Shown here piece after piece: positions 8,174 to 59,159 of a stretch of 64,000 bases of DNA (positions within the stretch are counted from its first letter, which is position 1; each line of letters starts with the position of its first letter). The DNA is from Clostridia bacterium (GTDB lineage Bacteria > Bacillota > Clostridia > Oscillospirales > Acutalibacteraceae). The notes beneath the pieces are model-generated. The model was not told the DNA's origin. It saw only the letters and a program-made list of their open reading frames with translations, and made no database searches. Location: contig JAFSFY010000010.1 in the NCBI GenBank assembly GCA_017434985.1, positions 1 through 64,000 of the forward strand, given 5' to 3'. Made by a program: the position numbers and the translations under genes.

Positions 8174-8195
8174 AGCCATACCTCCATTAAATCGT

Positions 8196-39717: not shown

Positions 39718-40866
39718 TTATTCTTCGATTTCAATTTCCACGTAGCGCGTGCCGCGGCGGTTGTGGTCGTAACCAAAGCAAATCGTACCGTCGGACAGGA
39801 TGCGCGGGTCGGGATAGGACAGGTAAAATTCGCCCGCCACGATATCCTCTTTGATGTACCACGTTTTCATTTCGTCGTTGGACACCCACACCGCCAAGCG
39901 TTTGCGGTCGCCACGTTTACCGACCACACCGCCCGTGGGGTTTAAGAACATCGCGATACGGCCATCGGGCAGACGCATCAAGGTGGTGAGCGAACTGGGG
40001 TTCGGGATGTCGGTTTGATACGCGGGCGTCCAGGTGTAGCCGTTATCAAAACTGTCCGAGCGCCACAGATAGCCACCCCATTCCGCACGCGCCAGCAGCG
40101 CAAGCGAACCGTCTTTGAGTTCAATGATCTGCGTTTCGCACAAGCCGAGCGGGCGGTTGTCAATGAGATTACCGCGCACCTTAAACTCGGTGAAATCCTC
40201 GTTGGTTTCAAAACAACACATTTTCACATGCCAATCACCGAACTCGGCAGAGGGTTTTTCTTCGTCTTCGCGCGCGGGTTCCATCGCCAGCGCCTCCTCT
40301 TCCGACTTGGCGTAGGCCAAACGAGCCACACCCGCTTTTAACGGGACGGGGCGTTTTTGGTTGATGGAACCGCTGCACAGCAGTTCGCCCTTGGAGGTGC
40401 GGATGATGTTGCCGACACCGGAGGACAAACCCTCGCCGTCCACCTTGGTTACGGGAAGTTCCTCGCCCCACGTGCGGCAACCGTCCTCGGAAATACCGGT
40501 CGTATAGTGCCACACCGAATAGGTATCCTTGGCGGGCCAACGCGCAATGCGCAGATAGTTTTTGCCGTCAAACAACGTTTGGCCGTTCACCGAAATGATG
40601 CCGCCCGAACCGTTTTCGCCGTTTTCGTTTCCCACGATGATCTCGGGGTCACTCCACGTACGGCCATGGTCAAACGAACGGGTGAGAATCATCACGTGGT
40701 CGTCGCACGGCTCGGTGTCGCCGCCCGTCATCGTGCAGGCGAGCAGTTCCCCGTTCGGTCCTTCGGCGATGCCACATCCCACCGCTAAACGGTAGGTCTT
40801 GCCTTCGTGTTCCCAGCCTTTCACCCCGTCAAACGGAGTGAAAATACGATACTTAATTTTGCCCAT
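39718..40866 (-). CDS. Cytosolic sialidase-like beta-propeller protein (copy 1)
   Basis: This is a 382-residue protein without a signal peptide. Asp-box motifs of the sialidase/BNR superfamily are seen at SFDHGRTW (64-71) and SFDNGYTW (about 270), with a variant SEDGCRTW between. The opening YRIFTPFDG resembles the arginine-bearing RIP segment of sialidases. LRLPDGRIAMFLNPTGGVVGKRGDR is a conserved inner-blade block. It is probably an exo-acting glycosidase or lyase of unknown specificity. It is last in a four-gene unit (44.9-39.7 kb) and a close paralogue of the next gene, 14 bp away. Confidence 0.65.
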   Translation of the reverse strand: MGKIKYRIFTPFDGVKGWEHEGKTYRLAVGCGIAEGPNGELLACTMTGGDTEPCDDHVMILTRSFDHGRTWSDPEIIVGNENGENGSGGIISVNGQTLFDGKNYLRIARWPAKDTYSVWHYTTGISEDGCRTWGEELPVTKVDGEGLSSGVGNIIRTSKGELLCSGSINQKRPVPLKAGVARLAYAKSEEEALAMEPAREDEEKPSAEFGDWHVKMCCFETNEDFTEFKVRGNLIDNRPLGLCETQIIELKDGSLALLARAEWGGYLWRSDSFDNGYTWTPAYQTDIPNPSSLTTLMRLPDGRIAMFLNPTGGVVGKRGDRKRLAVWVSNDEMKTWYIKEDIVAGEFYLSYPDPRILSDGTICFGYDHNRRGTRYVEIEIEE

Positions 40867-40880
40867 TTCTAGTTCCTCCT

Positions 40881-42029
40881 TTATTCCATCGGCGGAATTT
40901 CAATTTCGACGTACTCCGCACAACGGCGGTTTTTGTCGTAACCGAAACAAATGGTACCGTCAGACAAAATGCGCGGTTCGGGGTAGGATAAATACCCGCC
41001 CACCACAATGTCCTCTTTGATATACCACGTTTTCGCCTCGTCGTTAGACACCCACACCGATAAAACATCGCGCGGGCCGCGTTTACCGACCACACCGCCC
41101 GTGGGGTTGTGGAACAACGCAATACGCCCGTCGGGCAGACGCAAAAAACGCGCCAAACTGCTGGGGTTGGGAATGTCGGTCGGATAGGCGTCCGTCCACG
41201 TGTGGCCGCCGTCAAAACTGTCGGCACGCCACAAGAAGCCCGCCCATTCCGCACGGCAGAACAAGGCAAGAGAACCGTCTTTCATTTCAATCAGATGCGG
41301 TTCGGTCAAACCGAGAGGACGGTTGCCCACGATGCCGCGCGGTTTGAAACTGGTCAAATCTTCGCTGACTTCAAAACAAAGCGATTTGGTGATGTACTCA
41401 TCAATACGGCTATCCAGCGGCGTTTCGCCCTCTTTGCAAGGTTCCATCGCCACGGCTTCTTCTTCCGTTTTGGCCAAGGCCAAGCGCTCCACACTCGCCG
41501 TCAGCGGTTGGTCACGTTTTACGTTCACAATGCCCGCCGCCAACAATTCACCTTTGGACGTGCGCGTGATATTGCCGACACCGTAATAGGAATCGTTTAC
41601 ACCGTCAAACGTGACCGGCTTGGGTTCGCCCCACGTGCGCACGCCGTCGGTGCTGACCGCCGTGTAATGGTTCCACACCATATATTTCTCCTCGGCAGGC
41701 CAAAGGTCCACCGACAGATAGTTTTTACCGTCAAAGAGCGTACGACCGTCAATGTTATACGTGCCGCCGCTGCCGTTGACACCGTTTTCGTTGCCGATCA
41801 GTTCCTCCGGTTCGCTCCACGTTTGGCCGTGGTCATACGAACGCATAATGATGCTGATATGATCGTCGCACGGCTCGGTATCGCCGCCCGTCATGGTGCC
41901 GGCAAGCAATTCACCGTTCGGCCCTTCGGCAATGTTGCAGGAAACCGCCAACCGATAGATCTTACCGTTGTGTTCCCATCCTTTGTAACCGTCGAACGGG
42001 GTACTGATGCGATACTTGATTTTTCCCAT
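40881..42029 (-). CDS. Cytosolic sialidase-like beta-propeller protein (copy 2)
   Basis: This is a 382-residue twin of the downstream gene: same start (MGKIKYRI), same length and the same motif order. The Asp boxes are SYDHGQTW (64-71) and SFDGGHTW, with STDGVRTW as a variant. LRLPDGRIALFHNPTGGVVGKRGPRD matches the partner block. Conserved acids in GGDTEPCDDH and the Arg of YRIST could belong to an active site, but this cannot be assigned. AAAGGGGAAATC precedes the ATG. Tandem duplication followed by divergence is evident. The two may act on different linkages of one oligosaccharide. Confidence 0.65.
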   Translation of the reverse strand: MGKIKYRISTPFDGYKGWEHNGKIYRLAVSCNIAEGPNGELLAGTMTGGDTEPCDDHISIIMRSYDHGQTWSEPEELIGNENGVNGSGGTYNIDGRTLFDGKNYLSVDLWPAEEKYMVWNHYTAVSTDGVRTWGEPKPVTFDGVNDSYYGVGNITRTSKGELLAAGIVNVKRDQPLTASVERLALAKTEEEAVAMEPCKEGETPLDSRIDEYITKSLCFEVSEDLTSFKPRGIVGNRPLGLTEPHLIEMKDGSLALFCRAEWAGFLWRADSFDGGHTWTDAYPTDIPNPSSLARFLRLPDGRIALFHNPTGGVVGKRGPRDVLSVWVSNDEAKTWYIKEDIVVGGYLSYPEPRILSDGTICFGYDKNRRCAEYVEIEIPPME

Positions 42030-42042
42030 TATGATTTCCCCT

Positions 42043-43200
42043 TTATTCGATGTCCTCGATCTTCACGCGGACAAGTTCCATGATTTCCTTTTTGCGGGAA
42101 TGGAAGATATACAAATATCCGTCGTGGTTGCACATCGCCATATAGCCGTACTCGCCGCCTTTGGAGTAACCTTGTTGATGCAAGATGTAATGCTCGTTAC
42201 GGAGGGTGTAGGCTTTGTTAAAGTGATAGCCGTCCTTGGTGGTATAGAGGTTTAAGGGGAACAGATCCCACACATAGCCGTCGGCACAATCGGGCGAACC
42301 GATAGCGATCGGACGACCGTCGGGCAGGTGGTGGAAGTTAAATTGCGAGTTATCCGCCGTGAAACGGGTGGGATAAAACTCGGTCCAGCTTTCGCCGTCG
42401 TCATAACTTTCGCTGTTCCACACATAGCCGGCATCCGAGCGACGTATAATGTGCAACACGCCGTCCGGGCTTTGATACCACGTGGTTTCGGTGAGATTAC
42501 CGCCCTCCGCTTTGCAACGGGCAATGGAGTTCTTGTTTTTCTCACTGTCCACAAACGTGTAGTCCCATTTAAAGCCGTCCGGTTGTTCCTCGTCCGAACG
42601 AGAGGCGCAACAACCGTAAATCCCCATCCAGCGACCCGATTGCAACCGCCACAAGCCGACTGCCGACCCGATGGACGATATCCGCTCGGGCTCGCTCCAA
42701 TGCTCGCCATCCTCGGTGTAGATGCGCCACAAACTATCTTTGCGGCCGCCACCGAGGGTGGGGTCGAATTCGCCGTTTTCGTTAAAGTTGTTGGCGTCGA
42801 ACTCGCACAAGCAGTAGGTGGCAAACAGTTTGCCGTCAATCACACCGATGCGATTCGGGATGATGCAGGTTTCGCCAAATTCGCCTTGCGTGGCGGGGGC
42901 GATCACTTGGGGTTCGCTCCATTTGTAAAAGTTTTCGCTGCTGGAAATGGCCATTTGTTGGCCGGGGAAATCCTCGCCCCAATAGCCACGGGAATAGGCG
43001 GCATACAACTTGCCTTTGAAAAACGCCACACCCGCCGTATGATGGGTGAACGCCCATTCGGGGTCGTATTGCGTCACGTTGACGATCTCCACGTCCAACT
43101 GCTTCGGTGGTTCGGAAATGTGGTTGGTGATGTTCATTGAAGAACATTGCGCGCGCCATTCCAGCGCATCCAGTTCCACGGTTTTGTTTGCGTTCGACAT
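42043..43200 (-). CDS. Cytosolic beta-propeller protein, HHTAGVAFFKGK type
   Basis: This is a 385-residue protein without a signal peptide and without the N-terminal sandwich of its larger relatives. It has blade motifs WAFTHHTAGVAFFKGKLYAA, FYKWSEPQ, EDGEHWSEPE and SYDDGESW (a full Asp box), and ends with SRKKEIMELVRVKIED, the same closing strand as in the larger propellers (SKQKEV-x-E-x-x-R). Its closest relative in the window is the exported 516-residue lipoprotein. The ATG before SNANK is chosen because GAGGAG is then eight bases away. It is in one unit with the genes on either side. Confidence 0.62.
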   Translation of the reverse strand: MSNANKTVELDALEWRAQCSSMNITNHISEPPKQLDVEIVNVTQYDPEWAFTHHTAGVAFFKGKLYAAYSRGYWGEDFPGQQMAISSSENFYKWSEPQVIAPATQGEFGETCIIPNRIGVIDGKLFATYCLCEFDANNFNENGEFDPTLGGGRKDSLWRIYTEDGEHWSEPERISSIGSAVGLWRLQSGRWMGIYGCCASRSDEEQPDGFKWDYTFVDSEKNKNSIARCKAEGGNLTETTWYQSPDGVLHIIRRSDAGYVWNSESYDDGESWTEFYPTRFTADNSQFNFHHLPDGRPIAIGSPDCADGYVWDLFPLNLYTTKDGYHFNKAYTLRNEHYILHQQGYSKGGEYGYMAMCNHDGYLYIFHSRKKEIMELVRVKIEDIE

Positions 43201-43223
43201 ACTCATTTCTCCTCTCACGGATA

Positions 43224-44909
43224 TTAGATATCGCTCCACTTAATGCGGGTGATCTCGATAACCTCTTTTTGTTTGGAATACAGGATGTACAAATACTCGC
43301 CATCGTCTTCCAAATAGGGATAGGCGAAGGGGCCGCCTTTCGCATAACCCGGTTTTTGCATTTCGTACATTTCGTCGCGAATGACATAACCTTTGTCGAA
43401 ATTGTAGCCGTCTTCGGAAACAAACATCGCGAGCGGCCAACGCACGTCGTAATACGGCGACCCGATCCACAAAATACGTCCGTCAGGCGTGTAGGTGCAC
43501 ACCGGCATCGTAGACGCCGAAGTGAAGTTGGTGGGATAGTAGCCCGTCCAAGTCTCGCCCTCGTCGTAACTCTCGCTGTTCCACACGTAACCCGATTCGC
43601 TGCGGATGATGTTGTGCACCACGCCATCGGGACTTTGATAGCCGGAACTCTCGGTAAGCAACCCTTGACAACGGGCATCGGAATCGTCCAGTTTCTCTTG
43701 AGGGGCGCGGCGAGAATGCCATTCCACACCATCGCGCGAAAAGAGATTCACTTTTCCGTAGGCTACGTAGTAACTGTGACTGCCAAAAGGCGACGGAACG
43801 TCATTGACCAATTTATCCGAACCGCAACGCTCAGGCTCGCTCCAGTGAATACCGTCTTCCGAATACATAATGTAGCCACGGTGGGTGGCTTTGCGGCTGC
43901 CCGTGTTCATAAAGTTGCCGTTTTCGTCAAACGCCTCCGCCAAATAGTCGGTGACGACAAAGTGACAATACAGTTTCCCGAACGCCGCTTTCACACCGCC
44001 GATGATGCAGGGCGGATGATCGGTATGTTCACTCTTGGTGCCGGGGGTCACACCGGGCACCACCAGATCCATCGGCTCGGACCAATGATAAAAATCGTCA
44101 CTGACACAGTACACGATCTTTTGGCCGGGACAATCTTCGTCCTGCGGGGTGTTGGAAAATGAGGCGTAAAGTTTGCCGTTATGGTACGCGATACCCGGGT
44201 GATGCTTAAACGCAACGTCGGGCTGATAGTCACTGATAAGCACCTTTTCGGAATTGATTTTCGTCAGATCGCCTTTATAGTTGCTAATGCGCAACGAGCT
44301 TTCCATGGCGCGCTTTTCTTCGGGTGCCCTTTCGGGTTTGACGGGCGCTTCATACGGCAGACCCGCATACTCGTGGGCATCCGCCGCCGAGGCAAACCAC
44401 CCCATCCAATCGATGTACAATCCGTCGTCGGTGGTCACCCCTTCGCCGTGAATGTTGAACGGCGTAAACAGTGTCGTTTGCCAATTGCCGATGAAATAGG
44501 GGTGCGGGATCTCGCTGAAATCGACATACAGCATTTGCCAATCGGTGGTGGGTTGATACACAAATCGAGAACGGTAAATAAACTGCCACGGGTCGATCGC
44601 CGAACCGAGCTTTTCGTGCATTCTCATCGATTCGTCGGTACGCCAATAGAAGAACCCAAACGTGGAGGCGGGGTTTTTGAGTTTTACACGCATCGCAAAC
44701 ACGGGAAATTCGCGGCAATCGGTGGGGCCCATCGCAGGGAATTCAAACGCACCGCTTTCCCAGGCACCATTTTTGGTGGGGGTTACCAAAGCGGCTTTCT
44801 CCTCCGCCGCATACGAAATGGCGGTATCTCTTGTGGGGAACGGTTTGATGGAACCGATCTTATCTTCGGTATCAAATTTCACAAAGAAATTGTCTGCTTT
44901 TTTTACCAT
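43224..44909 (-). CDS. Cytosolic two-domain propeller protein (561 residues)
   Basis: It starts MVKKADNFFVKFDTE without a signal peptide. Residues about 1-195 form a sandwich-like domain that ends in YIDWMGWFASAADAHEYAG. Residues about 215-561 form a beta-propeller with KHHPGIAYHNGKLYASF, YHWSEPMD, SEDGIHWSEPE and the full Asp box SYDEGETW, closing with SKQKEVIEITRIKWSD. The domain pair is shared with three other genes nearby. AAAAGGAGAG fixes the start; 19 extra upstream codons lack support. It is first gene of the 44.9-39.7 kb unit. A glycan-processing enzyme is likely, but the reaction is unknown. Confidence 0.65.
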   Translation of the reverse strand: MVKKADNFFVKFDTEDKIGSIKPFPTRDTAISYAAEEKAALVTPTKNGAWESGAFEFPAMGPTDCREFPVFAMRVKLKNPASTFGFFYWRTDESMRMHEKLGSAIDPWQFIYRSRFVYQPTTDWQMLYVDFSEIPHPYFIGNWQTTLFTPFNIHGEGVTTDDGLYIDWMGWFASAADAHEYAGLPYEAPVKPERAPEEKRAMESSLRISNYKGDLTKINSEKVLISDYQPDVAFKHHPGIAYHNGKLYASFSNTPQDEDCPGQKIVYCVSDDFYHWSEPMDLVVPGVTPGTKSEHTDHPPCIIGGVKAAFGKLYCHFVVTDYLAEAFDENGNFMNTGSRKATHRGYIMYSEDGIHWSEPERCGSDKLVNDVPSPFGSHSYYVAYGKVNLFSRDGVEWHSRRAPQEKLDDSDARCQGLLTESSGYQSPDGVVHNIIRSESGYVWNSESYDEGETWTGYYPTNFTSASTMPVCTYTPDGRILWIGSPYYDVRWPLAMFVSEDGYNFDKGYVIRDEMYEMQKPGYAKGGPFAYPYLEDDGEYLYILYSKQKEVIEITRIKWSDI

Positions 44910-44970
44910 AGTTGCTCTCTCCTTTTTTAAGAGACTCAGTTCGTTTTTGCATCGCGCTTTGCGCAAGGTC

Positions 44971-44999
44971 AGTGTAGCATAGACCGCCGCATTTTACAA
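44971..44999 (-). promoter_or_regulatory. Promoter of the 44.9-39.7 kb unit
   Basis: On the minus strand TTGTAA, 17 bp, TACACT followed by GA. The same boxes and spacing precede the neighbouring unit. Confidence 0.7.
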
Positions 45000-45034
45000 G
45001 AAAAATTTACGTTTTTAGGGTAGCATTTTGATCA

Positions 45035-45075
45035 AAAAACAAGCGGTATTTCCGTCACACGGAAATACCGCTTGT
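45035..45075 (-). terminator. Terminator of the single-gene propeller unit
   Basis: AAGCGGTATTTCCGT pairs with its full complement around CAC. T-rich sequence follows on the minus strand. Confidence 0.88.
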
Positions 45076-45086
45076 CAAAACGTTTT

Positions 45087-46775
45087 TTAGATGTCCGACC
45101 ACTTGATACGCGTGATCTCGATAACCTCTTTTTGTTTGGAATACAGGATGTACAAATACTCGCCATCGTCTTCCAAATAGGGATAGGCGAAGGGGCCGCC
45201 TTTGGCATAACCGGGATGTTGCATCTCATACATCTCGTCGCGGATAACGTAGCCTTTGTCGAAGTTATAGCCATCCTCCGACACGTACAAGGCGAGCGGC
45301 CAACGCACGTCGTAGTACGGCGAACCGATCCACACGATGCGGCCGTCGGGCGTGTAGGTGCACACGGGCATGGTCGAAGCAGAGGTAAAGTTGGTGGGAT
45401 AATAACCCGTCCAGGTCTCTCCCTCGTCGTAGCTTTCGCTGTTCCACACGTAACCGCATTCACTGCGGATAATGTTATGGAACACACCGTCGGGGCCTTG
45501 ATAGCCGGAACTTTCGGTCAAGTGACCGGAGCAACGTGCATCCGAATCTGCCAATTTTTCATCCGTGGCACGGCGGACGACCCACTCTTTACCGTCTTTG
45601 GACAAAATGTTCAGTTTACCGTGCGCCACATACCGCTGATGCTCACCGAACGGCGACACCACATCGGTGTGGATATTGGACGAAGAAGATGGCACAGGGT
45701 CGGTCCAAGTCAGGCCGTCTTCGGAATACATAATGTAGTTGCGATAGGTAGCCTTGCGGTTACCCGCCGGCATAAACTTGCCGTTTTCGTCAAACGCTTC
45801 GGGCAAAAAGTCGATCACCACAAAACTGCAATACAGTTGACCGCACGCCGCTTTGACACCACCGATGATGCAGGGCGGATTATCGGTATGTTCGCTCTTG
45901 GTGCACGGCGTTACACCGGGAACGACCAGATCCATCGGTTCGGACCAATGATAGAAATCGTCACTGACACAGTACACGATCTTTTGACCGGGAACGTCCT
46001 CGTCGGCAGGCGTGTTGGAGAACGACGCATAGATCTTGCCGTTGTAGTAGGCGATGCCGGGGTGATGTTTGAACGTCACCTCGGGATCATAATCACTGAT
46101 GAGAACCTTTTCGGATTTGATTTTGGGCAGGTCTTTCGCACTGTTGCAAATACGGAGTGAGCTTTCCATCGCGCGTTTCTCAAGAGGATCGGCGATTTCG
46201 GGTTTCGCCGGCGCTTCGTACGGCTCGCCCGCATATTCGTGGGCATCCGCCATCGAACCGAACCAGCCCATCCAATCGATGTACAAACCGTCATCGGTGG
46301 TCACGCCCTCACCGGTCGCGTTAAAGGGCGTGAGCATCGTTACCAACCAGTTGCCGACAAAATAGGGGTGCGGAATGTCAGAGAAATCCACATACATGGT
46401 TTGCCAATCCGCCGTTTTCTCGTAGGTGAAATTGGCTTTGAGAACAAATTGCCAACAGTCAATGGCCGGGCCGAGCAAATCACGCATCCGCATCACTTCT
46501 TCGGTGCGCCAATAAAAACGGCCGAATTTGGATTCGGGATTTTTCAGTTTCACACGCATCGCAAACACGGGATATTCACGGCAATCGGCGTCACCGAATC
46601 CGTGAAATTCAAACCCGCCGCTTTCCCATGCGCCGTTTGCGGTGGGAACCACCAACGCCGCTTTTTCGGTTTCGTCATACGAAATGGCGGTCGCCGTGTT
46701 GCCGAACGGTTTGAGAACGCTCATCTTTTCTTTGCAATCAAATTTGACAAAGAAATTGTCTGCTTTTTTTACCAT
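45087..46775 (-). CDS. Cytosolic two-domain propeller protein (562 residues), twin of the previous
   Basis: It has the same start (MVKKADNFFVKFD), sandwich domain ending in WMGWFGSMADAHEYAG, and propeller with FKHHPGIAYYNGKIYASF, YHWSEPMD, SEDGLTWTDP and SYDEGETW. The last 92 coding bases before the final codons match the twin base for base. AAAAGGAGAGAG precedes the ATG used; a longer N-terminus reaching to 46874 would cover the promoter. It has its own promoter and terminator, so it can be expressed separately. No signal peptide is present. An intracellular glycan enzyme of unknown type is inferred. Confidence 0.65.
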   Translation of the reverse strand: MVKKADNFFVKFDCKEKMSVLKPFGNTATAISYDETEKAALVVPTANGAWESGGFEFHGFGDADCREYPVFAMRVKLKNPESKFGRFYWRTEEVMRMRDLLGPAIDCWQFVLKANFTYEKTADWQTMYVDFSDIPHPYFVGNWLVTMLTPFNATGEGVTTDDGLYIDWMGWFGSMADAHEYAGEPYEAPAKPEIADPLEKRAMESSLRICNSAKDLPKIKSEKVLISDYDPEVTFKHHPGIAYYNGKIYASFSNTPADEDVPGQKIVYCVSDDFYHWSEPMDLVVPGVTPCTKSEHTDNPPCIIGGVKAACGQLYCSFVVIDFLPEAFDENGKFMPAGNRKATYRNYIMYSEDGLTWTDPVPSSSSNIHTDVVSPFGEHQRYVAHGKLNILSKDGKEWVVRRATDEKLADSDARCSGHLTESSGYQGPDGVFHNIIRSECGYVWNSESYDEGETWTGYYPTNFTSASTMPVCTYTPDGRIVWIGSPYYDVRWPLALYVSEDGYNFDKGYVIRDEMYEMQHPGYAKGGPFAYPYLEDDGEYLYILYSKQKEVIEITRIKWSDI

Positions 46776-46878
46776 TGTCTCTCTCTCCTTTTGGGTTACC
46801 AAAGATAAAACATCTGATAGAGGAGCTGTTTTGTCAGATCGTGTGCACTGTCTTTTTTCATAAGTCGCGCACATCGTC

Positions 46879-46907
46879 AGTGTACCATACGTTATCCCGT
46901 TTTACAA
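46879..46907 (-). promoter_or_regulatory. Promoter of the single-gene propeller unit
   Basis: On the minus strand TTGTAA, 17 bp, TACACT, then GA: identical boxes to the promoter at 44971-44999. Confidence 0.7.
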
Positions 46908-46984
46908 CCTAAAAATTGGTTTTTAGAACGCTTTTTTCAGAAAAAAGCATCCTTTTTGCCGTCTTGGTCACCCGTTCTTCGGCA

Positions 46985-47025
46985 AGACAAAATCCCCGTT
47001 TTGTCGGTTGACAAAACGGGGATCA
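46985..47025 (-). terminator. Terminator of the 59.1-47.0 kb operon
   Basis: ATCCCCGTTTTGTC pairs perfectly with its complement around GGTT, with TTTTG on the minus strand. Confidence 0.88.
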
Positions 47026-47034
47026 TCGTTCAAT

Positions 47035-48741: not shown

Positions 48742-48802
48742 AGGGGTCTACTCCTTTTTTATTTTCACCGCAAGGAGGAGCGCGCGGTGTTGGCCTAAGT
48801 GA

Positions 48803-51800
48803 TCATCCGATATCGGACAGCTTGACGCGGCAGATCTCCACCACTTCTTTTTGTTTGGTGTACATCACGTACAGATAGTCGCCTTCTATCACAAGTTGCG
48901 GATAGGCGAAGGGGCCGCCTTTGGCCCAACCGTCTTGTTGCATCTCATAGACTTTGTCTTGCAAGATGTAGGCTTTGTCGAAGTTGTAGCCGTCTTCCGA
49001 AATATACAGTGCCAACGGCCAGCGCACGTCGTAGTAGGGTGAGCCGACCCACGCGATGCGGCCGTCCGGCAACGTGATGTGGGTAAACATCGTGTTGGCG
49101 GACACAAAGTTGGTGGGATAGAATTCCGACCACGATTGGCCCTCGTCGGTGCTGGTGGCCGACCAGATGTAGCCCGTTTCGCTGCGGCACATCAGGTGCA
49201 ACACACCGTCGGGGCTTTGATAGTACGACGTCTCGGTGAGCGAACCGGGGCAACGCGCGCGTGAAGAGGCGATCTGCTCGTTGCTCATCACGGCGCTGGC
49301 AATTTTAGTCCTCGGATTGAGCGCGTCGGTATTCGCGTAATGAATACGGAAACCGCAGATGGAATAAAACTTTTTCGACCCGTACGGGGATTGTTGGAAC
49401 GTGCTGTAACGGTCCAAACTGGAGACCGCTTTGGGGGCCGACCAGGTCACACCGTCGGTAGAAAAGATACCGTATTGCCGTTGCATACGGTATTTGGCCG
49501 CGTCATAGCCACGGAAGTTCCCGTTCGCATCAAAACTTTCAGGATAAAATTCACCGACCGTGTAATAGAAACACAACGTATCGCCGACCACCGAAAAACC
49601 GCCGATAACCTGCGTAGAGACGATGCCTTGCGCGTTCAAGTCTTTCATTTCCGCGAGTTCGTTGGTGGTGCGGTGGGCGGCCGAGCCGATGGGCACGATA
49701 TCTTGCGGATCGGTCCAATTCACAAAATCGGTGCTGGTGCTGAACACCATTTTTTGGCCGGGACAATCTTCGTCTTTGACGCCGTTGGAATAGCCAGCAT
49801 ACCATTTGCCCTTAAAATACGCAAGCGTCGGATGATGTTGGAACGAATAGGCGTCCACTTTCGGGTCGTACCCGTTGATGAGAGCCGTTTCGACGGGAAG
49901 TTTGGTCATTTCAGCGGACAATTCGTTGTTGATCTGCCACGCGGTGTCCTTTGCGAATTGTTCTTTTTGTGTCAAGGCAGGCGCTTCGGCAGGCGGCGTG
50001 TACGGTTCGCCCGCAAAGGCGTACACATCCTCCACCGACCCGAAGGCACCCATCCAATCGACGTACACACCGTCATCGGTAGTCACGTCGGTACCGAAGA
50101 TCGGTAGCAGATTGCACATCAGTCCCGTCCATTTGCCGATGAGATAGGGGTTGTGCACCTGCGACATATCGGCATACACGATCTGCCATTCGTCGGTCGC
50201 CTCGTAAGTCAACCCGCCGTTGCCGGCGTGTTGCATCCAGTTGATGCGCGAGCCAAAGTCCTGCACCACCGTGTACATTCGCTCGGACTCTTGGGTGCGC
50301 CAATACAACCGTCCGAACGGCATATTCGGGTTTTTCAGTTTGACCCGCATCGCTACAACGGGGAACTGTTTCACACTGACCGGCGTGGAGGGCGAAAATC
50401 CGATGGTACCGCCTTCCTTCACACCGTCTGCGGTGGGAGAAACGAGCACCGCACTCGTACCGTCGAGATTGACGTATTGATACGTGCTGTTTGCATGACG
50501 GTTAATCTTGTTGAGAGAAGCGGAATTTTCGATATCCCACAACATATACGGTGAACGGCCGCTCATCCAGTCGTCAACGACGGTGTCAAATTTTCCATCG
50601 CCAATTACTTCATACATTTCTTTTACGTTGGTCGTTTGCACGGGACCGTACACGTCCACCTGTGTGCCGTCGGCCGTTTGGCAAAGCAAATGCGTACGTG
50701 CACAAATGTCGGTCGCCTTGTCTTGCTGGTCAACGTCGGCCACCGTGGCGGCAAACGAATAGGTAACCATATCCCCGTTTTGCTCTCGCGAATGGCAGGA
50801 TGTGACGGGGGTGTTGACCACTTTCGCCACCTGACCGACCAAATTCACTTTTAAATCATTCGGAGTCTTCCCTGCCGCTTCCAGCGTATCTTTGGTGGCA
50901 GTAAGCACCGACACACGGAGCACCTGCAAGGGGGTGCCGTAGTGGACAACCATCTCCTTATCCCCTACGATTTTGGTTTTCAAGGTATGATAGAAGCGCA
51001 GACCTTGGGCATCGCCCGCGTTGAGGCGCGTGCGGATAGCGGCAGTGCCGCCGCCGATCGCGCTTCCCTGCCCGTTGGTTTTATCGAAATAGGCCTCGGC
51101 ATCGGCAACCGATGCAAAGGTCGCCGCCCATTGAATCCAGGCGAGATCCACGGAATGTCCTTTGCCGAGAACGGCGGTGTTGGCGGTCAAACCGTTGAGT
51201 TGGAGACCCTGCCACTCCCCGCTTGTGCGGCGGGTATCGTATACGAGCAGTTGCCAATCGGTGGTGTTGGTCGAATCGGGATAGTCACACAGCAATTCGC
51301 CAACGCCGTCGCCAAACAGGCCGACGGCGGCAGGCATTGTTCCCAAATCCTTTCGCGCCAATTTGATCTTAACGGCGACCACAGGATAGTCGCCCACCGC
51401 ATCGGTCAACCACGCGCGTGAGGGATCCATTTGTAATTTCAAGCCGCCGATGGTGGCGGTGTTCGCCGCATCAACCGTGCTGATCTTATACGCATTTTCG
51501 TTTGCGTCGTAGGTCAGCCCACTGTTGCCGATGGGGTGCAGATACAAAGGGTCGTAGTCGTGGTAAAATTCCGACGTGAGCGGCAATGAAAAGTTAAAGA
51601 AGGTGTTGCCCTTGTCAATCGCCACCGAGGAAATCGTCGCGGTGGTCTCCTCGAAGTAGGCTTTGGCAGCGTCGATCGTGGCAAAAGCCCCCGCCCACGC
51701 TATGTGCGCAATGGGTTCGGGTTCGCCGTCCCACAGAGAGTTGTCGGTTTCGTATTCCGGATCGATAAACGAGAGCGAAACCCCGTTCCACGTTTCCACG

Positions 51801-52915
51801 CTCGGTTGGTTGTTGGCAGAAAAGATCATCAGTTGCCAATCGTCTTCAAGCGGCGTCCACGCATAGCGATTTTTCCGGTCGGGATGTTCATCACAAACCG
51901 AAACGGTTGTCATTTCCACGTACCTGCCGTTTTCGGCACGAACGAGGGCCGTATTCGTCGGCACCGCATCGTTCTTATCCATTTTTACTTTGAGGGCAAA
52001 GTACGGATACTCCGCCGTTGAAACGGTGTCGGCGGCCGCTTCGCCCGACCAAAAATGCAGTCCGCCGATCGGGCCTTTCGTTGTGTATCCGTTTTTGGTG
52101 GACACCTGAAGCGCGCTTGATTTGTCATCATACGTCAGTGCGGCGTTGCCTTCGGCGGTGTTATACGGTTTTTCGATCCACTCGTTATAGGAGGGGTGTA
52201 CGGCGGCGTCTTTCGAATAGTCAAAGAAATAATCGGAAGCGCCGTCAATGTTGTCTTGCGGTGCGGTGGTTTTATCGAACATCTCCTGTGCTTCTTCCAC
52301 GCTGGAAAACGCGCCCGCCCATTGCACCCACGCGAGGTCGTGCACCTTGCCGTCTGCCAATGCCGTATTTTCGGTAACGCGGAAAATATTGCCGAGCCAT
52401 CGACCGTCGCCGTAGTAGGTAGAATGATTCAGCACGGTATGGCCGTCGCAAATATACAGCACCCATTTGCCAACAGTGTAAGAATCGTATCCTTCGAGCG
52501 GTTGCAGAATGGTGCCGAAACTGCCGGAATAATTGACGCGAGCCGAATAGTGAGAGGTAGGTTCCTTCACTTCGGAGCTTGCCACCTTGATCTTCACGGC
52601 AAAATAGGGATACTCCTCGATCGACACGTTGGTGTCGGCAGTTTCGGGCAACCATAGCATCTGCCCGACCTTTTGACCGTTGGCTTCGTCGGCACGTTTG
52701 CCTGCCGTAGTGATCTTGATGGCTTTTTGCGAAGCATCGTAAGAGGCTTTCGTGTTGGTATTGGTATACGGCTTGTCGGCATCGCTCGGCGTATAGCCGT
52801 CAGTATAATCAAAAAAGAATTCGGTCGCTTCGGCGGCATCAACCATCGAGCTATACGACGCAAACAACCCTACCATCATCACCAGTGTCGTGATAATACA
52901 AACGATTCGTTTCAT
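48803..52915 (-). CDS. Giant exported multidomain propeller protein (1370 residues)
   Basis: A signal peptide (residues 1-28, cut near VDAAEA) is followed by three tandem sandwich-like domains of about 200 residues. Each opens with an FFFDY-like strand and closes with a W-x-G-x-F-x-S/T motif (VQWAGAFSSVEEAQ, IAWAGAFATIDAAK, IQWAATFASVADAE). Next comes a roughly 150-residue domain with QGLRFYHTLKT, then a fourth sandwich ending WMGAFGSVEDVYAFAG, and finally the beta-propeller (FQHHPTLAYFKGKWYAGY, SATSTDEGQSW). No anchor is visible. The first three domains are probably carbohydrate-binding. The ATG at 52915 follows GAGGG by seven bases. A surface glycan-processing role is inferred. Confidence 0.68.
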   Translation of the reverse strand: MKRIVCIITTLVMMVGLFASYSSMVDAAEATEFFFDYTDGYTPSDADKPYTNTNTKASYDASQKAIKITTAGKRADEANGQKVGQMLWLPETADTNVSIEEYPYFAVKIKVASSEVKEPTSHYSARVNYSGSFGTILQPLEGYDSYTVGKWVLYICDGHTVLNHSTYYGDGRWLGNIFRVTENTALADGKVHDLAWVQWAGAFSSVEEAQEMFDKTTAPQDNIDGASDYFFDYSKDAAVHPSYNEWIEKPYNTAEGNAALTYDDKSSALQVSTKNGYTTKGPIGGLHFWSGEAAADTVSTAEYPYFALKVKMDKNDAVPTNTALVRAENGRYVEMTTVSVCDEHPDRKNRYAWTPLEDDWQLMIFSANNQPSVETWNGVSLSFIDPEYETDNSLWDGEPEPIAHIAWAGAFATIDAAKAYFEETTATISSVAIDKGNTFFNFSLPLTSEFYHDYDPLYLHPIGNSGLTYDANENAYKISTVDAANTATIGGLKLQMDPSRAWLTDAVGDYPVVAVKIKLARKDLGTMPAAVGLFGDGVGELLCDYPDSTNTTDWQLLVYDTRRTSGEWQGLQLNGLTANTAVLGKGHSVDLAWIQWAATFASVADAEAYFDKTNGQGSAIGGGTAAIRTRLNAGDAQGLRFYHTLKTKIVGDKEMVVHYGTPLQVLRVSVLTATKDTLEAAGKTPNDLKVNLVGQVAKVVNTPVTSCHSREQNGDMVTYSFAATVADVDQQDKATDICARTHLLCQTADGTQVDVYGPVQTTNVKEMYEVIGDGKFDTVVDDWMSGRSPYMLWDIENSASLNKINRHANSTYQYVNLDGTSAVLVSPTADGVKEGGTIGFSPSTPVSVKQFPVVAMRVKLKNPNMPFGRLYWRTQESERMYTVVQDFGSRINWMQHAGNGGLTYEATDEWQIVYADMSQVHNPYLIGKWTGLMCNLLPIFGTDVTTDDGVYVDWMGAFGSVEDVYAFAGEPYTPPAEAPALTQKEQFAKDTAWQINNELSAEMTKLPVETALINGYDPKVDAYSFQHHPTLAYFKGKWYAGYSNGVKDEDCPGQKMVFSTSTDFVNWTDPQDIVPIGSAAHRTTNELAEMKDLNAQGIVSTQVIGGFSVVGDTLCFYYTVGEFYPESFDANGNFRGYDAAKYRMQRQYGIFSTDGVTWSAPKAVSSLDRYSTFQQSPYGSKKFYSICGFRIHYANTDALNPRTKIASAVMSNEQIASSRARCPGSLTETSYYQSPDGVLHLMCRSETGYIWSATSTDEGQSWSEFYPTNFVSANTMFTHITLPDGRIAWVGSPYYDVRWPLALYISEDGYNFDKAYILQDKVYEMQQDGWAKGGPFAYPQLVIEGDYLYVMYTKQKEVVEICRVKLSDIG

Positions 52916-52947
52916 ACATTCCCTCACTTTTTCGTTACGCCTTCATC

Positions 52948-53036
52948 GCACAAGAAAAGAAAACCGCCGCGTGTTTTCCTTTCTTGTGCGTTGAAAATCA
53001 AGGCGGCGCCGATGCCCGAACCGACATCGGCGCCGC
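52948..53036 (-). promoter_or_regulatory. Intercistronic double hairpin between two exported propeller genes
   Basis: Stem one pairs GCACAAGAAA (52948-52957) with 52980-52989 and continues inward with GAAAAC and GTTTTC. Stem two is 12 bp (GCGGCGCCGATG, 53003-53014, with 53025-53036). No T-run follows on the minus strand. The arrangement recalls the paired hairpins in the surface-fibre operon. Confidence 0.55.
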
Positions 53037-53056
53037 ACGTGTTACTGTAGTTTCAA

Positions 53057-55408
53057 TTAGGCAATATCCGTGAGTTTCACGCGGCAGATCTCCACCACTT
53101 CTTTTTGCTTGGTGTACATAATGTAGAGATAGTCGCCTTCAATCACGAGTTGCGGATAGGCAAAGTAACCGCCTTTGGCCCAACCGTCTTGTTGCATTTC
53201 GTATTTCTCGTCTTGCAGAATGTAGGCTTTGTCAAAGTTGTAGCCGTCCTCCGAGATGTAGAGCGTCAACGGCCAACGCACGTCATAATACGGCGAGCCG
53301 ACCCACGCGATACGGCCATCGGGCAACGTGATGTGGGTGAACATCGTGTTGGCGGATTGCATATTGGTGGGATAGTATTCCGTCCAGGTCAAGCCTTCGT
53401 TCATGCTGGTGGCCGCCCAAACGTAACCGCTCTCACTGCGGCACATCAAGTGCAACACACCGTCGGGGCTCTGATAGTAGGACGTTTCGGTCAACTGACC
53501 CGGGCAACGCGCACGAGAAGAGGCAATCTGTTCGCTCGTCATTTGCGAACTGGTAATCGTATCGCGAGGATCCAGATCGTCGGTCGCCGCATAGTGAATA
53601 CGGAACCCGCTGATGGAGTAGAATTTCTTCGTGCCGTAGGGCGATTGTGCGAAGACGCTGTAACGGTTGAGACTGGTCACCCGCACCGGATCGGACCAGG
53701 TCGTGCCGTCTTCGGAATAGATGGCATATTGGCGGTTGATCTGATATTTCGCATCCTGCATACCGAGGAAGTTGCCGTCCGCGTCAAAGCTGGAACGCTC
53801 AAACTCGGTCACCGAGTAGTAGAAGCAGAGGGTATCACCCACCACCGAGAAGTTACCGATGATCTGCGTGGTCACTGCACCCATAGCGTTCAGATCACTC
53901 ACACCGGCCAATTGGTTGGTGGTGCCCATCGACGCGCTGGCGGGTTGCACAATCGTTTTCGCGGAGGACCAGTTGACAAAGTCGGTGCTGGTCGCATACA
54001 TCATCCGTTGACCCGGAGCGTCTTCATCCTTCACGCCGCGAGAGAAACCGGCATACCACGTGCCTTTGAAGTAGACCAAGCTGGGATGGTGCTTAAACGC
54101 ATAACGAGAAGAATAATCACTGATGATCGCCGTTTCCACGGGGATTTTGGTCATTTCGGAAGACAAGTTGTTGTTGATCTTCCACGCGTTATCTTTACCG
54201 TTTTGTTCAAACGCAGTGAGCGGTGCGGCCTCTTCCACTTCGGGGACTTCTTCACCGGCAAACGCATACGCGTCTTCCACCGTGCCGAACGCACCGATCC
54301 AGTCGACGTAGATACCGCGGTCGGTCGTCACGCCTGTGCCGCCGTAGGTAGGCAACATATTGCACATCATCGCGGTCCAATTGCCGATGAGGTAGGGGTT
54401 ATGTGCGTCGGACATATCCACGTAAATGATCTGCCAATCGGTGGTCGCTTCATACGTCATAGATTTACCGGTGATGGATTGTTGCCAGTTAATACGGCTG
54501 CCCATCTCGTTCATCACGTACCACATACGCTCGGATTCTTCGGTTCTCCAATAGAGACGGCCAAATTCGCAGTCAGCACGTTGCAGTTTCACGCGCATCG
54601 CCAGCACGGGATATTGCTTCACGCTGCCCTTGCCCGGGAAGGTGATGGCAATGGTGTTGCCTTCTTTGATACCGTTCTCCTTGGGTGTCAACAGCACGGA
54701 CGTTTGACCGTCCACCGTCGAAAACGCATAGTTCGTGTTGGTTTGCGCCGACAGACTGCTGACGGACGACGCACTCGTGATATCAAAGAACAGGTTGGTG
54801 TTGCGGCCTTGCATCCACTGTTGGATGTTGGAGGTAAATTTGGAAGCGCCGATGGCTTCGTACATCTCTTTCACGTTGGTGATCTGCACGTTGCCGTACA
54901 CGTCCACGGGATTACCGCTCGCATCTTGGCACAGCAAGTGCGCACGGGAACAAATGTCGGTCTTTTTGTTGTCTTGACCGACCGTGTTGACCAGCGCGGT
55001 GAAGACGTAGGTAACGTCGTTGCCGTTTTGCACGCGAGAGCGGCATTTGGTGACGGGGGTCTGCACCACTTTGTCCACGTTGCCGATCAAATCGACCGTC
55101 AGATCGTCGGGGTGCACGTAGGCGTTCACCAAGGTGTCGAGCGTCGCCGTGAGCACCGAAACGCTCACCACTTCGAGCTCTTGACCGCCGTAGGTGACGA
55201 CTTCTTTGCCGTCTTTGACGGTGGTTTTCAAGGTGTGATAGAAACGCAAGCCTTGCGTTTCATCGCTGTTGAGTGCGGTACGAATACCGGCCGACGTACA
55301 TTGCAAAGGCGAGTCTTCAACCGACTCGGCGATCGCCGCCGGCGTAAAAGTGGCAAACATACCGATCATCATCATAAGGGTCGTTACCAAGGATAATACA
55401 CGTTTCAT
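53057..55408 (-). CDS. Exported propeller protein (783 residues)
   Basis: A signal peptide (residues 1-28, ending PAAIAES) is followed by a roughly 150-residue domain with QGLRFYHTLKT and TNVKEMYEAIG, shared with the giant neighbour. A sandwich domain ending in WIGAFGTVEDAYAFAG follows, then the beta-propeller (FKHHPSLVYFKGTWYAGF, SEDGTTWSDP, ATSMNEGLTW) closing with TKQKEVVEICRVK. It corresponds to the C-terminal half of the 1370-residue protein, so one arose from the other by duplication with gain or loss of three domains. AAAAGGAG sets the ATG at 55408; an upstream extension has no ribosome site. Confidence 0.68.
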   Translation of the reverse strand: MKRVLSLVTTLMMMIGMFATFTPAAIAESVEDSPLQCTSAGIRTALNSDETQGLRFYHTLKTTVKDGKEVVTYGGQELEVVSVSVLTATLDTLVNAYVHPDDLTVDLIGNVDKVVQTPVTKCRSRVQNGNDVTYVFTALVNTVGQDNKKTDICSRAHLLCQDASGNPVDVYGNVQITNVKEMYEAIGASKFTSNIQQWMQGRNTNLFFDITSASSVSSLSAQTNTNYAFSTVDGQTSVLLTPKENGIKEGNTIAITFPGKGSVKQYPVLAMRVKLQRADCEFGRLYWRTEESERMWYVMNEMGSRINWQQSITGKSMTYEATTDWQIIYVDMSDAHNPYLIGNWTAMMCNMLPTYGGTGVTTDRGIYVDWIGAFGTVEDAYAFAGEEVPEVEEAAPLTAFEQNGKDNAWKINNNLSSEMTKIPVETAIISDYSSRYAFKHHPSLVYFKGTWYAGFSRGVKDEDAPGQRMMYATSTDFVNWSSAKTIVQPASASMGTTNQLAGVSDLNAMGAVTTQIIGNFSVVGDTLCFYYSVTEFERSSFDADGNFLGMQDAKYQINRQYAIYSEDGTTWSDPVRVTSLNRYSVFAQSPYGTKKFYSISGFRIHYAATDDLDPRDTITSSQMTSEQIASSRARCPGQLTETSYYQSPDGVLHLMCRSESGYVWAATSMNEGLTWTEYYPTNMQSANTMFTHITLPDGRIAWVGSPYYDVRWPLTLYISEDGYNFDKAYILQDEKYEMQQDGWAKGGYFAYPQLVIEGDYLYIMYTKQKEVVEICRVKLTDIA

Positions 55409-55439
55409 AACAGATTCTCCTTTTTTAAAAGTTAACCCA

Positions 55440-56990
55440 TTACAGGTCAGCAATCTTGATACGATGGATCTCCATCACTTCTTTTTGCTTGGAATGCAAT
55501 ACGTAGAGATATTGATCGTCCATCGTGACACGCGGATAACCGAAGCAACCACCCTTGGAATAGCCCGCTTGTTTCAGGTTGTAGCGTTCGTCACTGATGG
55601 TGTATGCTTTATCAAAGTTATAGCCATCTTCCGAAATATAAATATTGAGCGGCCATTGTTCCCATTGATTGGACTTGTTGTACGGGGTACCGATCGCGTA
55701 GATACGGCCGTCCGGCAACTCGCCCATCGGGAATTGGTTGTTGGAAGAGGAGAAGTTGGTGGGATACGCTTCGGTCCACGTCTCGCCGCCGTCATAGCTT
55801 TGCGAGAGATACATCACGCCCGCGTTGGTACGAGACATCATAAAGATCACGTTGTCTTTGGTATGATACCACGAAGACTCGGTGAAGATCGGGTTGCTCG
55901 GTTTGGGAGTATGGTTCTTAATACGCTCGCGAATGCGTTGCAACTGTTGATCGTCGTGTTGAGACGCTTCCCAGAAGAAACCGTCGGGCTCTTTGTCGGT
56001 GTAATAGAAGCGTGTACCCGACACACACAGCCAACGACCGAAGTAAGTTTGGCGGAGGGAGTCGTTGACAAGAGCGCCGCATTTTACGGGTTCGCTCCAA
56101 TTCACACCGTCTTCGGTGTAAGACATCCAACTGGTGGTGTTGCCCACAAAGTCATCACCGCCGCCTTTGAACTTGCCGTTGCTGTCAAACATCACAGGGC
56201 CATAGTCGTGCGCCATACCGGTGGCAAACAATTTACCGTTCGCCACGTACAAACCGCAGGGAATGATGGAGACTTTGGCTTTCACACCGTTGTACGTGTA
56301 GGTGCCGTCAAACGCATCAATGACGACTTTCGGCTCACTCCAGTCGAAGAAGTTGTCGCTGGATGCCACCGCCAACCGCTGACCGGGGAAATCTTCGCCG
56401 GTTTCGTGTTGCGAGAACATCGCGTAGATCTTGCCTTTGAACACCGCCACGCCGGGATGGTGAGTAAACGCCCACTCTTTGTTGAAGGTGGTCACCGCCG
56501 CGGTATCGTTCGGTATCTTCGCAAACACCTTGCCGTCCACATGGGTTACCTTTTTCGCCGCTTCTTCGGGCGTCATGGTGGGGGTGATCTTTTTGAAGGT
56601 GGTGGTGGTCACCTTGGTACGGCTGGGCGGCGTTTTCTTGGTGGTGGTGACAGTGGTCGGTTCGGTGACATCGACAACCGTGCCCGTCGTGGGGGCCTGT
56701 TCACTCGTCGTGGTCGTCTTATTCACGGTGCGGTAGGTGACCTTCGTCGTGGTGGTCGCCTTGGTGGTTTCTTTTTTCGTTGTGGTGGATTTCTTCGAAC
56801 CCGTAGTTTCGTCTTGCTGTACCGAAGTGGAGGTTTCTTCCTCTTCGGTGGTCGTCGTGGCTTCTGCCGTCGTGGTGGTTTCTGCGGTGGTGGTCGTCGT
56901 GGCATCCGTGTCACCGTTATCACCACAACCGGTGAGCATCGCCAACGACAACGCCGCCGCCAAAATCGCCGCAAACAAACGAATTTTCAT
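55440..56990 (-). CDS. Propeller lipoprotein with Thr-rich linker (516 residues)
   Basis: The lipobox LTGC has its Cys at residue 22. Residues about 28-140 are a low-complexity stretch rich in Thr, Glu and Lys (TTTTAETTTT, KKETTKATTTT), a flexible stalk that may be glycosylated. The rest is a beta-propeller (WAFTHHPGVAVFKGKIYAMF, FFDWSEPK, TEDGVNWSEP and the Asp box SYDGGETW), closing SKQKEVMEIHRIK. It lacks the sandwich domain. The protein would be anchored in the outer leaflet beside the sugar-binding lipoprotein, whose gene lies upstream. It is 31 bp before the next exported gene. Confidence 0.68.
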   Translation of the reverse strand: MKIRLFAAILAAALSLAMLTGCGDNGDTDATTTTTAETTTTAEATTTTEEEETSTSVQQDETTGSKKSTTTKKETTKATTTTKVTYRTVNKTTTTSEQAPTTGTVVDVTEPTTVTTTKKTPPSRTKVTTTTFKKITPTMTPEEAAKKVTHVDGKVFAKIPNDTAAVTTFNKEWAFTHHPGVAVFKGKIYAMFSQHETGEDFPGQRLAVASSDNFFDWSEPKVVIDAFDGTYTYNGVKAKVSIIPCGLYVANGKLFATGMAHDYGPVMFDSNGKFKGGGDDFVGNTTSWMSYTEDGVNWSEPVKCGALVNDSLRQTYFGRWLCVSGTRFYYTDKEPDGFFWEASQHDDQQLQRIRERIKNHTPKPSNPIFTESSWYHTKDNVIFMMSRTNAGVMYLSQSYDGGETWTEAYPTNFSSSNNQFPMGELPDGRIYAIGTPYNKSNQWEQWPLNIYISEDGYNFDKAYTISDERYNLKQAGYSKGGCFGYPRVTMDDQYLYVLHSKQKEVMEIHRIKIADL

Positions 56991-57053
56991 GCAACCATTC
57001 CTTTCTGTATATGTTTCAAAAAATTATCAACGTAACAATTACGAATAGCGAGC

Positions 57054-57179: not shown

Positions 57180-57229
57180 GTCGCCGAGTTGACAAGGTGC
57201 GAACGAAGAACGTTCGCTTTCAGTCGTAT

Positions 57230-59098
57230 TTACGCGTTACACGCTTTGAGGAGGTCTTCGATACCCATCGCTTTGAGGTCGTTCACGAAGGTGTCGTACT
57301 CGCTCATCGGGCGGTTGCCCTTGATGAAGGACACGATCTGGTTGCGGATGTACACCTGAATGGTGTCAAAACGCTGGACCATCGTGGCTTCCACGTCGGG
57401 AGTGAGCGGGAGATAGTTTTGGCCGTAGCCTTCCGCCACCGCTTTGTCATAGTCGCGCACCCAAGGATGAGTGGCTTCCCAACTATCGTCCGAATATTCT
57501 TCAAAATCTTCCCAATCCCAATCTTGAATGTTCATCGCCGGAGCAAAGCAGAGCTGACCGATACCGACGTTGGACATCCATTGATATTGATAGTCAGCTT
57601 TGTCGGCATATTTTTGCCACACAGACTTCGGCACGTAGGGGTTGCCGTCTTTGTCGGTCTTGTAGGTCTCGCCGAGTTTGCCGTAGCAGTTGGTCGCCGC
57701 ACCCTCGTCGGTGTAGCACCAATCCATAAAGAACAGCAGTTCGTCAATGTGGTGGGCTTGCGCGCCGATGAAGTACATTTGCGAATAGTTGGTGGATTCC
57801 GACCAATAGATGGTGGACTTCTTGTTGTTGTTCAAGTGGCTCTTCATATCGGAGATGCAAATGAAACCGGACTCTTTTTTGGTTTGTTGCAACTGCTGAT
57901 TCGCCTTGAAGGTCGGAGGACCGTTGTCGATGGTGAAGAACGCTTTGGACGCGGTCGACAAGCTCATCCAGTTGGCGTCACTGGACTGATCGAAGTTTTG
58001 GTCCAAAATGCCTTCGTCATAGCAATCCTTCATAAATTGGAGGATGTTCTTGTATTTCGCCGCGTTGAGCACGCCGCATTCCCATTTCGCCGCTTCCGCG
58101 TTGTAGTACACGTTGTAGCGTTGGCCGAGTTGCGCGCTCCAGTATTCCAAAATGTTGGTCAAACCACGGGACGCGTAGGGTTGGCTGTCGGGATATTTCT
58201 TCTTGAGGACTTTCATCGCCTCAAACCACTCTTTCCAGGTGGTGGGGCATTTGATGTTGTTGTCTTCCAAAATATCCACGCGGAGGTAAGAGCCCAAGTA
58301 GGCGCTCTCATAGCCGCCCCATTCCGCCTGCGCAAAACCGTACAAACGGCCGCCGGTGGAATATTGCATCAGATCGTTCCAGCGATCTTTCACCATCGCG
58401 TAGTAGTGGGGCGTGTCGGTCTTGATGCGATCGGTCAGATCGTAGAACAGCGAGGTCTTGTAGGTGCGGAATTGGGTGTTGCCGAGGTAAGAAATATCAT
58501 AGAACTTACCCGAAGCGGCCGCCGCCATCAATTTGGTTTGGGCAGAAGCGCCTTCACCGATATCAATGTCAAATTCCACGTTGGTGAGCTCGTAAAGCGC
58601 ATCCCATTTCGGTGCATCCGTCTTGATGGGTTGATACGCGTGCTCGGTCATATACAACGACCATTTCATCGTCTCGTCAAGCGGCATCGAGAGATCGATC
58701 GCCGAAGTAGGAGTCGTTTGACCGTCTTTCTTCGTGGTCGCGGTATTTTTCTTGGTGGTGCCATCTTTTTTCGTGGTGGTGGTCACCTTTTTCGTGGTGC
58801 TTTTCTTGCCACCGATGATGACCTTTTTGGTCGTTTTGGTGGTTTTTTGCGTTTTACCGTTTTCGTCGGTCACGACCGTTTCTTCTTCGGAAGGATCGGT
58901 CTCTTCCTCGCCGGAAGGATCGGTCACGTCATCACCCGAAGGATCGGTCACGTCGTCACCGGAAGGATCGGTGTCGGCTTGAGAGGTCGTGGTGGTCGTC
59001 GTGGTATCGTCGTCCGGCGTATCAGAGGGTTTGCAACCCGCAAACAGCGACAACGAGAGAAGCGCCGCCAACACAACGGCTAAGATGCGCAGTTTCAT
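57230..59098 (-). CDS. ABC-type sugar-binding lipoprotein with long repeat-bearing linker
   Basis: This is a 622-residue lipoprotein. The lipobox LFAGC has its Cys at residue 22. Residues about 25-145 are low complexity: Thr runs, three or more copies of an eight-residue TDPSGDDV-like repeat, then a Lys-Thr-rich stretch (TTKK). The remaining roughly 460 residues look like a family 1-type extracellular solute-binding protein (LKKKYPDSQPYASRG, FFTIDNGPPTF, HIDELLFFMDWCYTDEGA). It would capture oligosaccharide for an ABC importer, but no permease genes are in the window. The start is set by AGGAAG and by the signal peptide; extra upstream codons cover the promoter. It is first gene of the long propeller operon. 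Confidence 0.8.
   Translation of the reverse strand: MKLRILAVVLAALLSLSLFAGCKPSDTPDDDTTTTTTTSQADTDPSGDDVTDPSGDDVTDPSGEEETDPSEEETVVTDENGKTQKTTKTTKKVIIGGKKSTTKKVTTTTKKDGTTKKNTATTKKDGQTTPTSAIDLSMPLDETMKWSLYMTEHAYQPIKTDAPKWDALYELTNVEFDIDIGEGASAQTKLMAAAASGKFYDISYLGNTQFRTYKTSLFYDLTDRIKTDTPHYYAMVKDRWNDLMQYSTGGRLYGFAQAEWGGYESAYLGSYLRVDILEDNNIKCPTTWKEWFEAMKVLKKKYPDSQPYASRGLTNILEYWSAQLGQRYNVYYNAEAAKWECGVLNAAKYKNILQFMKDCYDEGILDQNFDQSSDANWMSLSTASKAFFTIDNGPPTFKANQQLQQTKKESGFICISDMKSHLNNNKKSTIYWSESTNYSQMYFIGAQAHHIDELLFFMDWCYTDEGAATNCYGKLGETYKTDKDGNPYVPKSVWQKYADKADYQYQWMSNVGIGQLCFAPAMNIQDWDWEDFEEYSDDSWEATHPWVRDYDKAVAEGYGQNYLPLTPDVEATMVQRFDTIQVYIRNQIVSFIKGNRPMSEYDTFVNDLKAMGIEDLLKACNA
58889..58978. repeat. 24-bp tandem repeat within the linker of the sugar-binding protein
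   Basis: Units start at 58889, 58913, 58937 and 58961 and share GAAGGATCGGT. They encode the TDPSG-type repeat. The partial fourth unit and imperfect sites suggest slippage-driven length change in the stalk. Confidence 0.8.
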
Positions 59099-59159
59099 AC
59101 GGTCTTTCTTCCTTTCTTTTTTGTCACGTACCAAAGGAACACGATATTCCTTCGTATGT

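Follow-up and report, generated by a model that had tools for sequence, protein, structure and literature searches.

Lineage-specific radiation of GH143/GH33-like propellers with an altered sialidase active site in a Clostridia bacterium

Introduction

Nine related genes for Asp-box propeller proteins follow each other on one strand of contig JAFSFY010000010.1 (assembly GCA_017434985.1), of which a stretch of 64,000 nucleotides, referred to here as the window, was analysed. The question raised by this locus is why a single bacterium should carry so many sialidase-like proteins, and which glycan they might act on. A preliminary description regarded the run as a nine-gene expansion of the sialidase/BNR superfamily outside any characterised family and, together with its neighbours, as a complete glycan-use locus. 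We find that the run belongs to a larger, lineage-specific radiation of GH143/GH33-like propellers with an altered sialidase active site.

Organisation of the propeller cluster

The nine propeller ORFs occupy positions 39718-56990 of the minus strand and have the sizes given in the preliminary description (Table 1). All nine scored above the Pfam BNR_2 cut-off and together contain ten Asp boxes of the form SxDxGxxW/F, where 0.13 would be expected from shuffled proteins, which agrees with the superfamily first proposed; the 783-residue protein has no box of this exact form. An NCBIfam search of the nine gave no meaningful match. Two subfamilies were recognised, family A with seven members that can be aligned end to end and family B with the two 382-residue twins, which share 68% identity. 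Among the nine N-termini, hydrophobic signal sequences were observed in the 516-residue protein (with a lipobox and a Thr-rich stalk) and in the 783- and 1370-residue proteins but not in the other six, and the earlier division into exported and cytosolic sets therefore holds.

The 622-residue lipoprotein next to the cluster has no Pfam match of its own. Its previous reading as a sugar-binding protein was confirmed by 42% identity over 483 residues to an SBP_bac_1-matching protein of locus L099, in the Oscillospiraceae MAG SIG584, where that protein directly adjoins a family A gene. The divergent AraC gene was likewise confirmed. As a separate observation, L085:3709-4024 shares about 95% DNA identity with window 58783-59118, the start of the solute-binding protein gene, and forms the end of a 4-kb contig carrying two more family A lipoproteins; there must therefore be a near-copy of this gene, which is the probable cause of the break in the assembly.

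A single operon is unlikely for the run, because intrinsic-terminator-like stems would split it into at least four units; the stems suggest SBP-516-783, 1370-568, 562 and 561-385-twin-twin as putative transcription units. The cluster resembles glycan-utilisation loci with ABC uptake in that a solute-binding lipoprotein and an AraC gene lie beside surface and cytosolic enzymes. However, it differs from them in that no ABC permease or kinase adjoins it (gene list for 39718-60057) and in that the members of the family are spread over 12 contigs. ABC permeases are found elsewhere in the genome, for example with a family A gene on contig C45. Given these permeases, the dispersed family and the predicted units, the notion of a complete locus was not retained. 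The GC content of the cluster (53.2%) matches that of the window (52.9%), so nothing suggests recently acquired foreign DNA.

Table 1. Positions of the features of the cluster in the window (aa, residues)
Feature	Position	Strand	Evidence
Terminator-like stem closing the cluster	39683-39714	-	Consensus scan only
Propeller, family B twin 1, 382 aa, no signal peptide	39718-40866	-	BNR_2 E 3.4e-23
Propeller, family B twin 2, 382 aa, no signal peptide	40881-42029	-	BNR_2 E 1.8e-23
Propeller, family A, 385 aa, Leu for third triad Arg, no signal peptide	42043-43200	-	BNR_2 E 1.9e-19
Family A, 561 aa, N-terminal module and propeller, no signal peptide	43224-44909	-	AlphaFold2, VIA
Module of the 561-aa protein (example)	44364-44828	-	Module profile
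Family A, 562 aa	45087-46775	-	78% identity to 561-aa neighbour, dN/dS 0.13
Family A, 568 aa, no signal peptide	47035-48741	-	Pfam
Exported family A, 1370 aa, four modules of about 160 aa, then propeller	48803-52915	-	Signal sequence, module profile
Modules of the 1370-aa protein	52274-52759, 51650-52150, 51083-51526, 50012-50482	-	Module profile
Exported family A, 783 aa, single module and propeller	53057-55408	-	Pfam, module profile, signal sequence
Lipoprotein, family A, 516 aa, Thr-rich linker and propeller, Gln for third triad Arg	55440-56990	-	
Further terminator-like stems	45038-45076, 46991-47024, 53003-53036		Consensus scan only
Solute-binding lipoprotein, 622 aa, Thr-rich linker	57230-59098	-	42% identity to SBP_bac_1 protein
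Divergent regulator, AraC family, AraC_binding domain	59239-60057	+	HTH_18 E 7.9e-22

Genome-wide distribution and phylogeny

The host genome (1.62 Mb, 90% complete), of which the window is one contig, was found to encode 25 BNR_2 propellers on 12 contigs, and the nine-gene expansion, although real, had thus been understated. Twenty-one of these belong to family A, three to family B (the window twins and one gene on contig C32) and one, on contig C20, is a more typical BNR protein. The nine window genes form the largest cluster. Within the genus, family A was detected in only one other of nine sampled genomes, the sheep-colon MAG RGIG5311, whose contig is identical to locus L098. At the level of the order, 12 of 394 genomes matched at 1e-20, with at least one or two copies each except in the host genome, which has more. 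None of 390 other genomes sampled from the class reached 1e-40; the copy numbers in these order and class genomes are lower bounds where scoring stopped at five candidates. Five related loci were found with a ten-sequence family A alignment.

In the maximum-likelihood tree, 17 of the 21 family A proteins fall into one clade exclusive to the host genome (support 96/96). The genes at 43224, 45087, 47035, 48803 and 53057 form a clade of their own (support 100/100), and the cluster therefore grew by tandem duplication. All eight pairs tested are under purifying selection, with dN/dS of 0.12-0.36. No account of such an expansion was found in the literature searched. Twenty-five genes for one uncharacterised family in the very small (1.62 Mb) genome of an uncultured gut bacterium would represent a strong bet on a specific acidic glycan as food for this lineage. 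Specialisation on a fibre or mucus glycan that bears acidic sugars is suggested.

Fold and family placement

When the family A profile was searched against PDB sequences with hmmsearch, the best match was the GH143 enzyme BT_1020 (5mqr, E 3.8e-22, in two segments), followed by GH181 and then GH33 sialidases. Identity between family A and BT_1020 is about 20%. An AlphaFold2 model of the 561-residue protein (pLDDT 86.6) has a sialidase-type beta-propeller fold, and its C-terminal 345 residues match 5mqr in VIA with Z 27.1. The model also matches the Micromonospora GH33 sialidase 2bzd (Z 26.6, rmsd 3.2, 297 residues aligned); it fits both the five-bladed 5mqr and the six-bladed GH33 fold well. 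PF24067 was above the cut-off in five of the seven window members of family A and below it in those at 42043 and 55440. For family B, a model of twin 2 gave GH33 sialidases as the top Foldseek matches at a pLDDT of only 61. PL24/PL25-type propellers, considered on account of the His pair described below, were not among the profile and fold matches listed. The absence of a characterised family was thus right insofar as no exact match exists; judged by profiles and models, family A is nevertheless clearly nearest to GH143 (BT_1020) and GH33, with the catalytic Glu, the Tyr and the second Arg conserved.

Active-site residues

Residues E76, D77, Q81, E238, R254, Y353, K371 and E372 do not vary among the 21 family A copies of the host genome, and the conserved acids anticipated for the presumed pocket are present. 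In an HMM alignment with Clostridium perfringens NanI, an invariant Glu, an invariant Arg, the Arg of RWPL and an invariant Tyr of family A fall on chain positions 297, 313, 373 and 413. We take these to be E539, R555, R615 and Y655, which fits the range of the structural match (246-688). The Tyr/Glu nucleophile pair of GH33 (positions 413 and 297) is thus invariant in the 21 copies, but the three-Arg carboxylate site is incomplete. The first Arg of the triad is replaced by His in every copy, in a His-His/Gln-Pro-type motif whose equivalent in BT_1020 is NHQP. The third is absent from six of the 21 (42043, 55440, two genes on contig C2 and one each on C45 and C37), with Leu, Gln, Met or Ala in its place, and these six form one clade (support 87/92). 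Carboxylate recognition is therefore less strongly indicated for those copies. The EDAPG motif resembles the DAPG/DAPN of GH33, in a region where the HMM alignment is non-significant, and from this similarity the acid/base would be D77 or E76.

The closest known system is the N-terminal domain of BT_1020, a Dha hydrolase, which provides the top profile and structure matches and shares the HxP, E76, Tyr and C-terminal KE motifs with family A. Family A differs from it in having Asp where BT_1020 has His, in its massive paralogy and in lacking the large second catalytic domain. GH143 cleaves Dha, a sialic-acid analogue, and retains the Tyr-Glu pair (PMC6811678). Compared with the GH33 enzymes NanI and that of Micromonospora viridifaciens, the fold (Z about 26), the Glu, the Tyr, the second Arg and, in most copies, the third Arg are kept, but the first Arg has become His and the third is lost in the six-gene clade. 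In the GH181 sialidase Amuc_1547, the second-best profile match, the Glu and Arg are conserved, the Arg triplet of GH33 is altered too and His/Gln stands in place of the Tyr (PMC12018670), whereas family A retains an invariant Tyr.

A repeated module of about 160 residues

Several propellers are preceded by a module of about 160 residues, of which a protein may have a single copy or up to seven. Seven copies were observed in a 1718-residue protein on contig C6 and in a 1386-residue protein of SIG584, three in a 987-residue protein on contig C9 and two in the C45 protein, which is secreted and also carries cell-wall-binding-type repeats. The module has no match in Pfam or among PDB sequences, and across the order it was seen in only two other genomes (G052 and G093), both of the same genus. 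It is previously undescribed and probably a carbohydrate-binding module, a candidate for a new family of such modules. Module copies on exported proteins are encoded at window 50012-52759, L082:4395-9550, L099:3316-7476 and L092:6246-9209.

Proposed function and alternative explanations

We propose, with a probability of roughly 0.6, that the family A proteins act as retaining exo-glycosidases on 2-keto-3-deoxy (ulosonic) sugar acids or their analogues. Following the retaining mechanism of sialidases, the propeller pocket would remove a terminal acidic sugar, for example Dha, Kdo or an analogue of sialic acid. The invariant Tyr, activated by the invariant Glu, would attack the anomeric carbon, and the Asp, the Glu or both in the ED-P-GQ motif would serve as acid/base. 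The carboxylate may be held by one or two Arg residues together with the His that replaces the first Arg. Lipoprotein and exported copies would work at the cell surface with the help of the tandem modules, and the solute-binding protein would pass fragments on to an ABC system whose genes lie elsewhere in the genome. Trimming might then be completed by the cytosolic copies and the released acid cleaved by an aldolase, with the cluster putatively under AraC control. This reading is favoured by a DHDPS-family aldolase that is encoded with the C45 family A gene and scores below both the DapA and the NanA cut-offs; at L097, another such aldolase lies beside a BNR gene. Duplication would have diversified the pocket, notably in the clade that lost the third Arg. 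Against the proposal, no close relative has a known activity. Since the site is conserved yet altered, a few Dha, Kdo, Kdn and Neu5Ac conjugates would suffice to test the substrate class.

A narrower reading, in which the bacterium is a pectin side-chain specialist and the targets are RG-II-like Dha/Kdo side chains, is possible but rather unlikely. The nearest solved relative, BT_1020, is an RG-II enzyme, albeit a distant one at this level of identity. GH4, tagaturonate reductase and altronate dehydratase genes adjoin the three-module protein, and the C20 BNR gene has KDG-kinase-like, KDPG-aldolase-like and YhcH-family neighbours. The genome contains five matches to GH78-type rhamnosidases, one of them about 0.5 kb from the two C2 family A genes. 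Genes for GH78, an FGGY sugar kinase and a rhamnogalacturonase/epimerase-like protein are likewise found close to a family A gene of genome G303. However, no GH28 was found above the cut-off in the genome and no pectinase was recognised within the cluster, while the C34 family A gene has PIG-L deacetylase and NagB-like genes around it, which suggest amino sugars, as well as a PfkB kinase. An acidic, partly pectic diet would fit these neighbourhoods, and a pectin context is favoured over Neu5Ac. True mucin sialidases for Neu5Ac/Neu5Gc with a relaxed active site are improbable, even though the GH33 fold and the Tyr, Glu and Arg are conserved, relatives come from the ruminant gut and a related gene (L138) adjoins a sialic-acid-type acetylesterase. 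The first Arg is missing from all copies, and NanE was not found in the 90% complete genome, so the fate of any released sialic acid would be hard to place. Both full-length DHDPS proteins other than the C45 aldolase are encoded among lysine-synthesis (DapA) genes. These contexts and the lack of NanE disfavour Neu5Ac as a carbon source; since sialidases can also feed other species, the missing catabolism is not decisive.

Display or adhesion by non-catalytic lectins or adhesins that keep the sialidase fold is also improbable. The exported copies do have Thr-rich stalks, tandem modules and choline-binding-type repeats, and in G052 and G093 most module proteins are anchored to the S-layer (three of the four checked), but the catalytic residues are invariant in all copies, cytosolic ones included, and selection is purifying. 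The ulosonic-acid reading is itself opposed by copy number, as 21 copies far exceed what the two ulosonic acids of RG-II would need. It is a real, if tentative, possibility that the proteins constitute one or more new families of the sialidase clan, with the His-for-Arg exchange and a clade lacking the third Arg, which cleave an acidic linkage outside the known families and are accompanied by a new surface carbohydrate-binding module.

Other features of the gene neighbourhoods

Family A genes of other genomes were found near GH78 and an FGGY kinase (L137) and near GH42 (L140). The C45 gene is preceded, besides the aldolase, by ABC permeases, an NHL/Yip1 protein and a DUF5696-type protein, whose family was assigned from the equivalent L099 gene. 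At L091:686-6990, ABC permeases occur with a DUF5696-type protein and an NHL/Yip1 membrane protein, and the same set is present at L099 of SIG584; the literature searched yielded no paper that describes it.

Genes of the nucleoside-hydrolase family adjoin family A in two genomes, at L136:14674-15558 (Pfam) and L094:5550-6437 (by eye), and it is possible that they encode unrecognised sugar hydrolases. Elsewhere in the window, 5783-8179 encodes an enzyme resembling GH2 beta-mannosidases, and the product of 10810-12912 has a GH20 domain-2 match. Finally, microcompartment-like shell proteins (recognised by eye) and an aldehyde dehydrogenase are encoded on contig C2 (L081:1633-7531), where they adjoin the two family A lipoproteins and the GH78-type gene.
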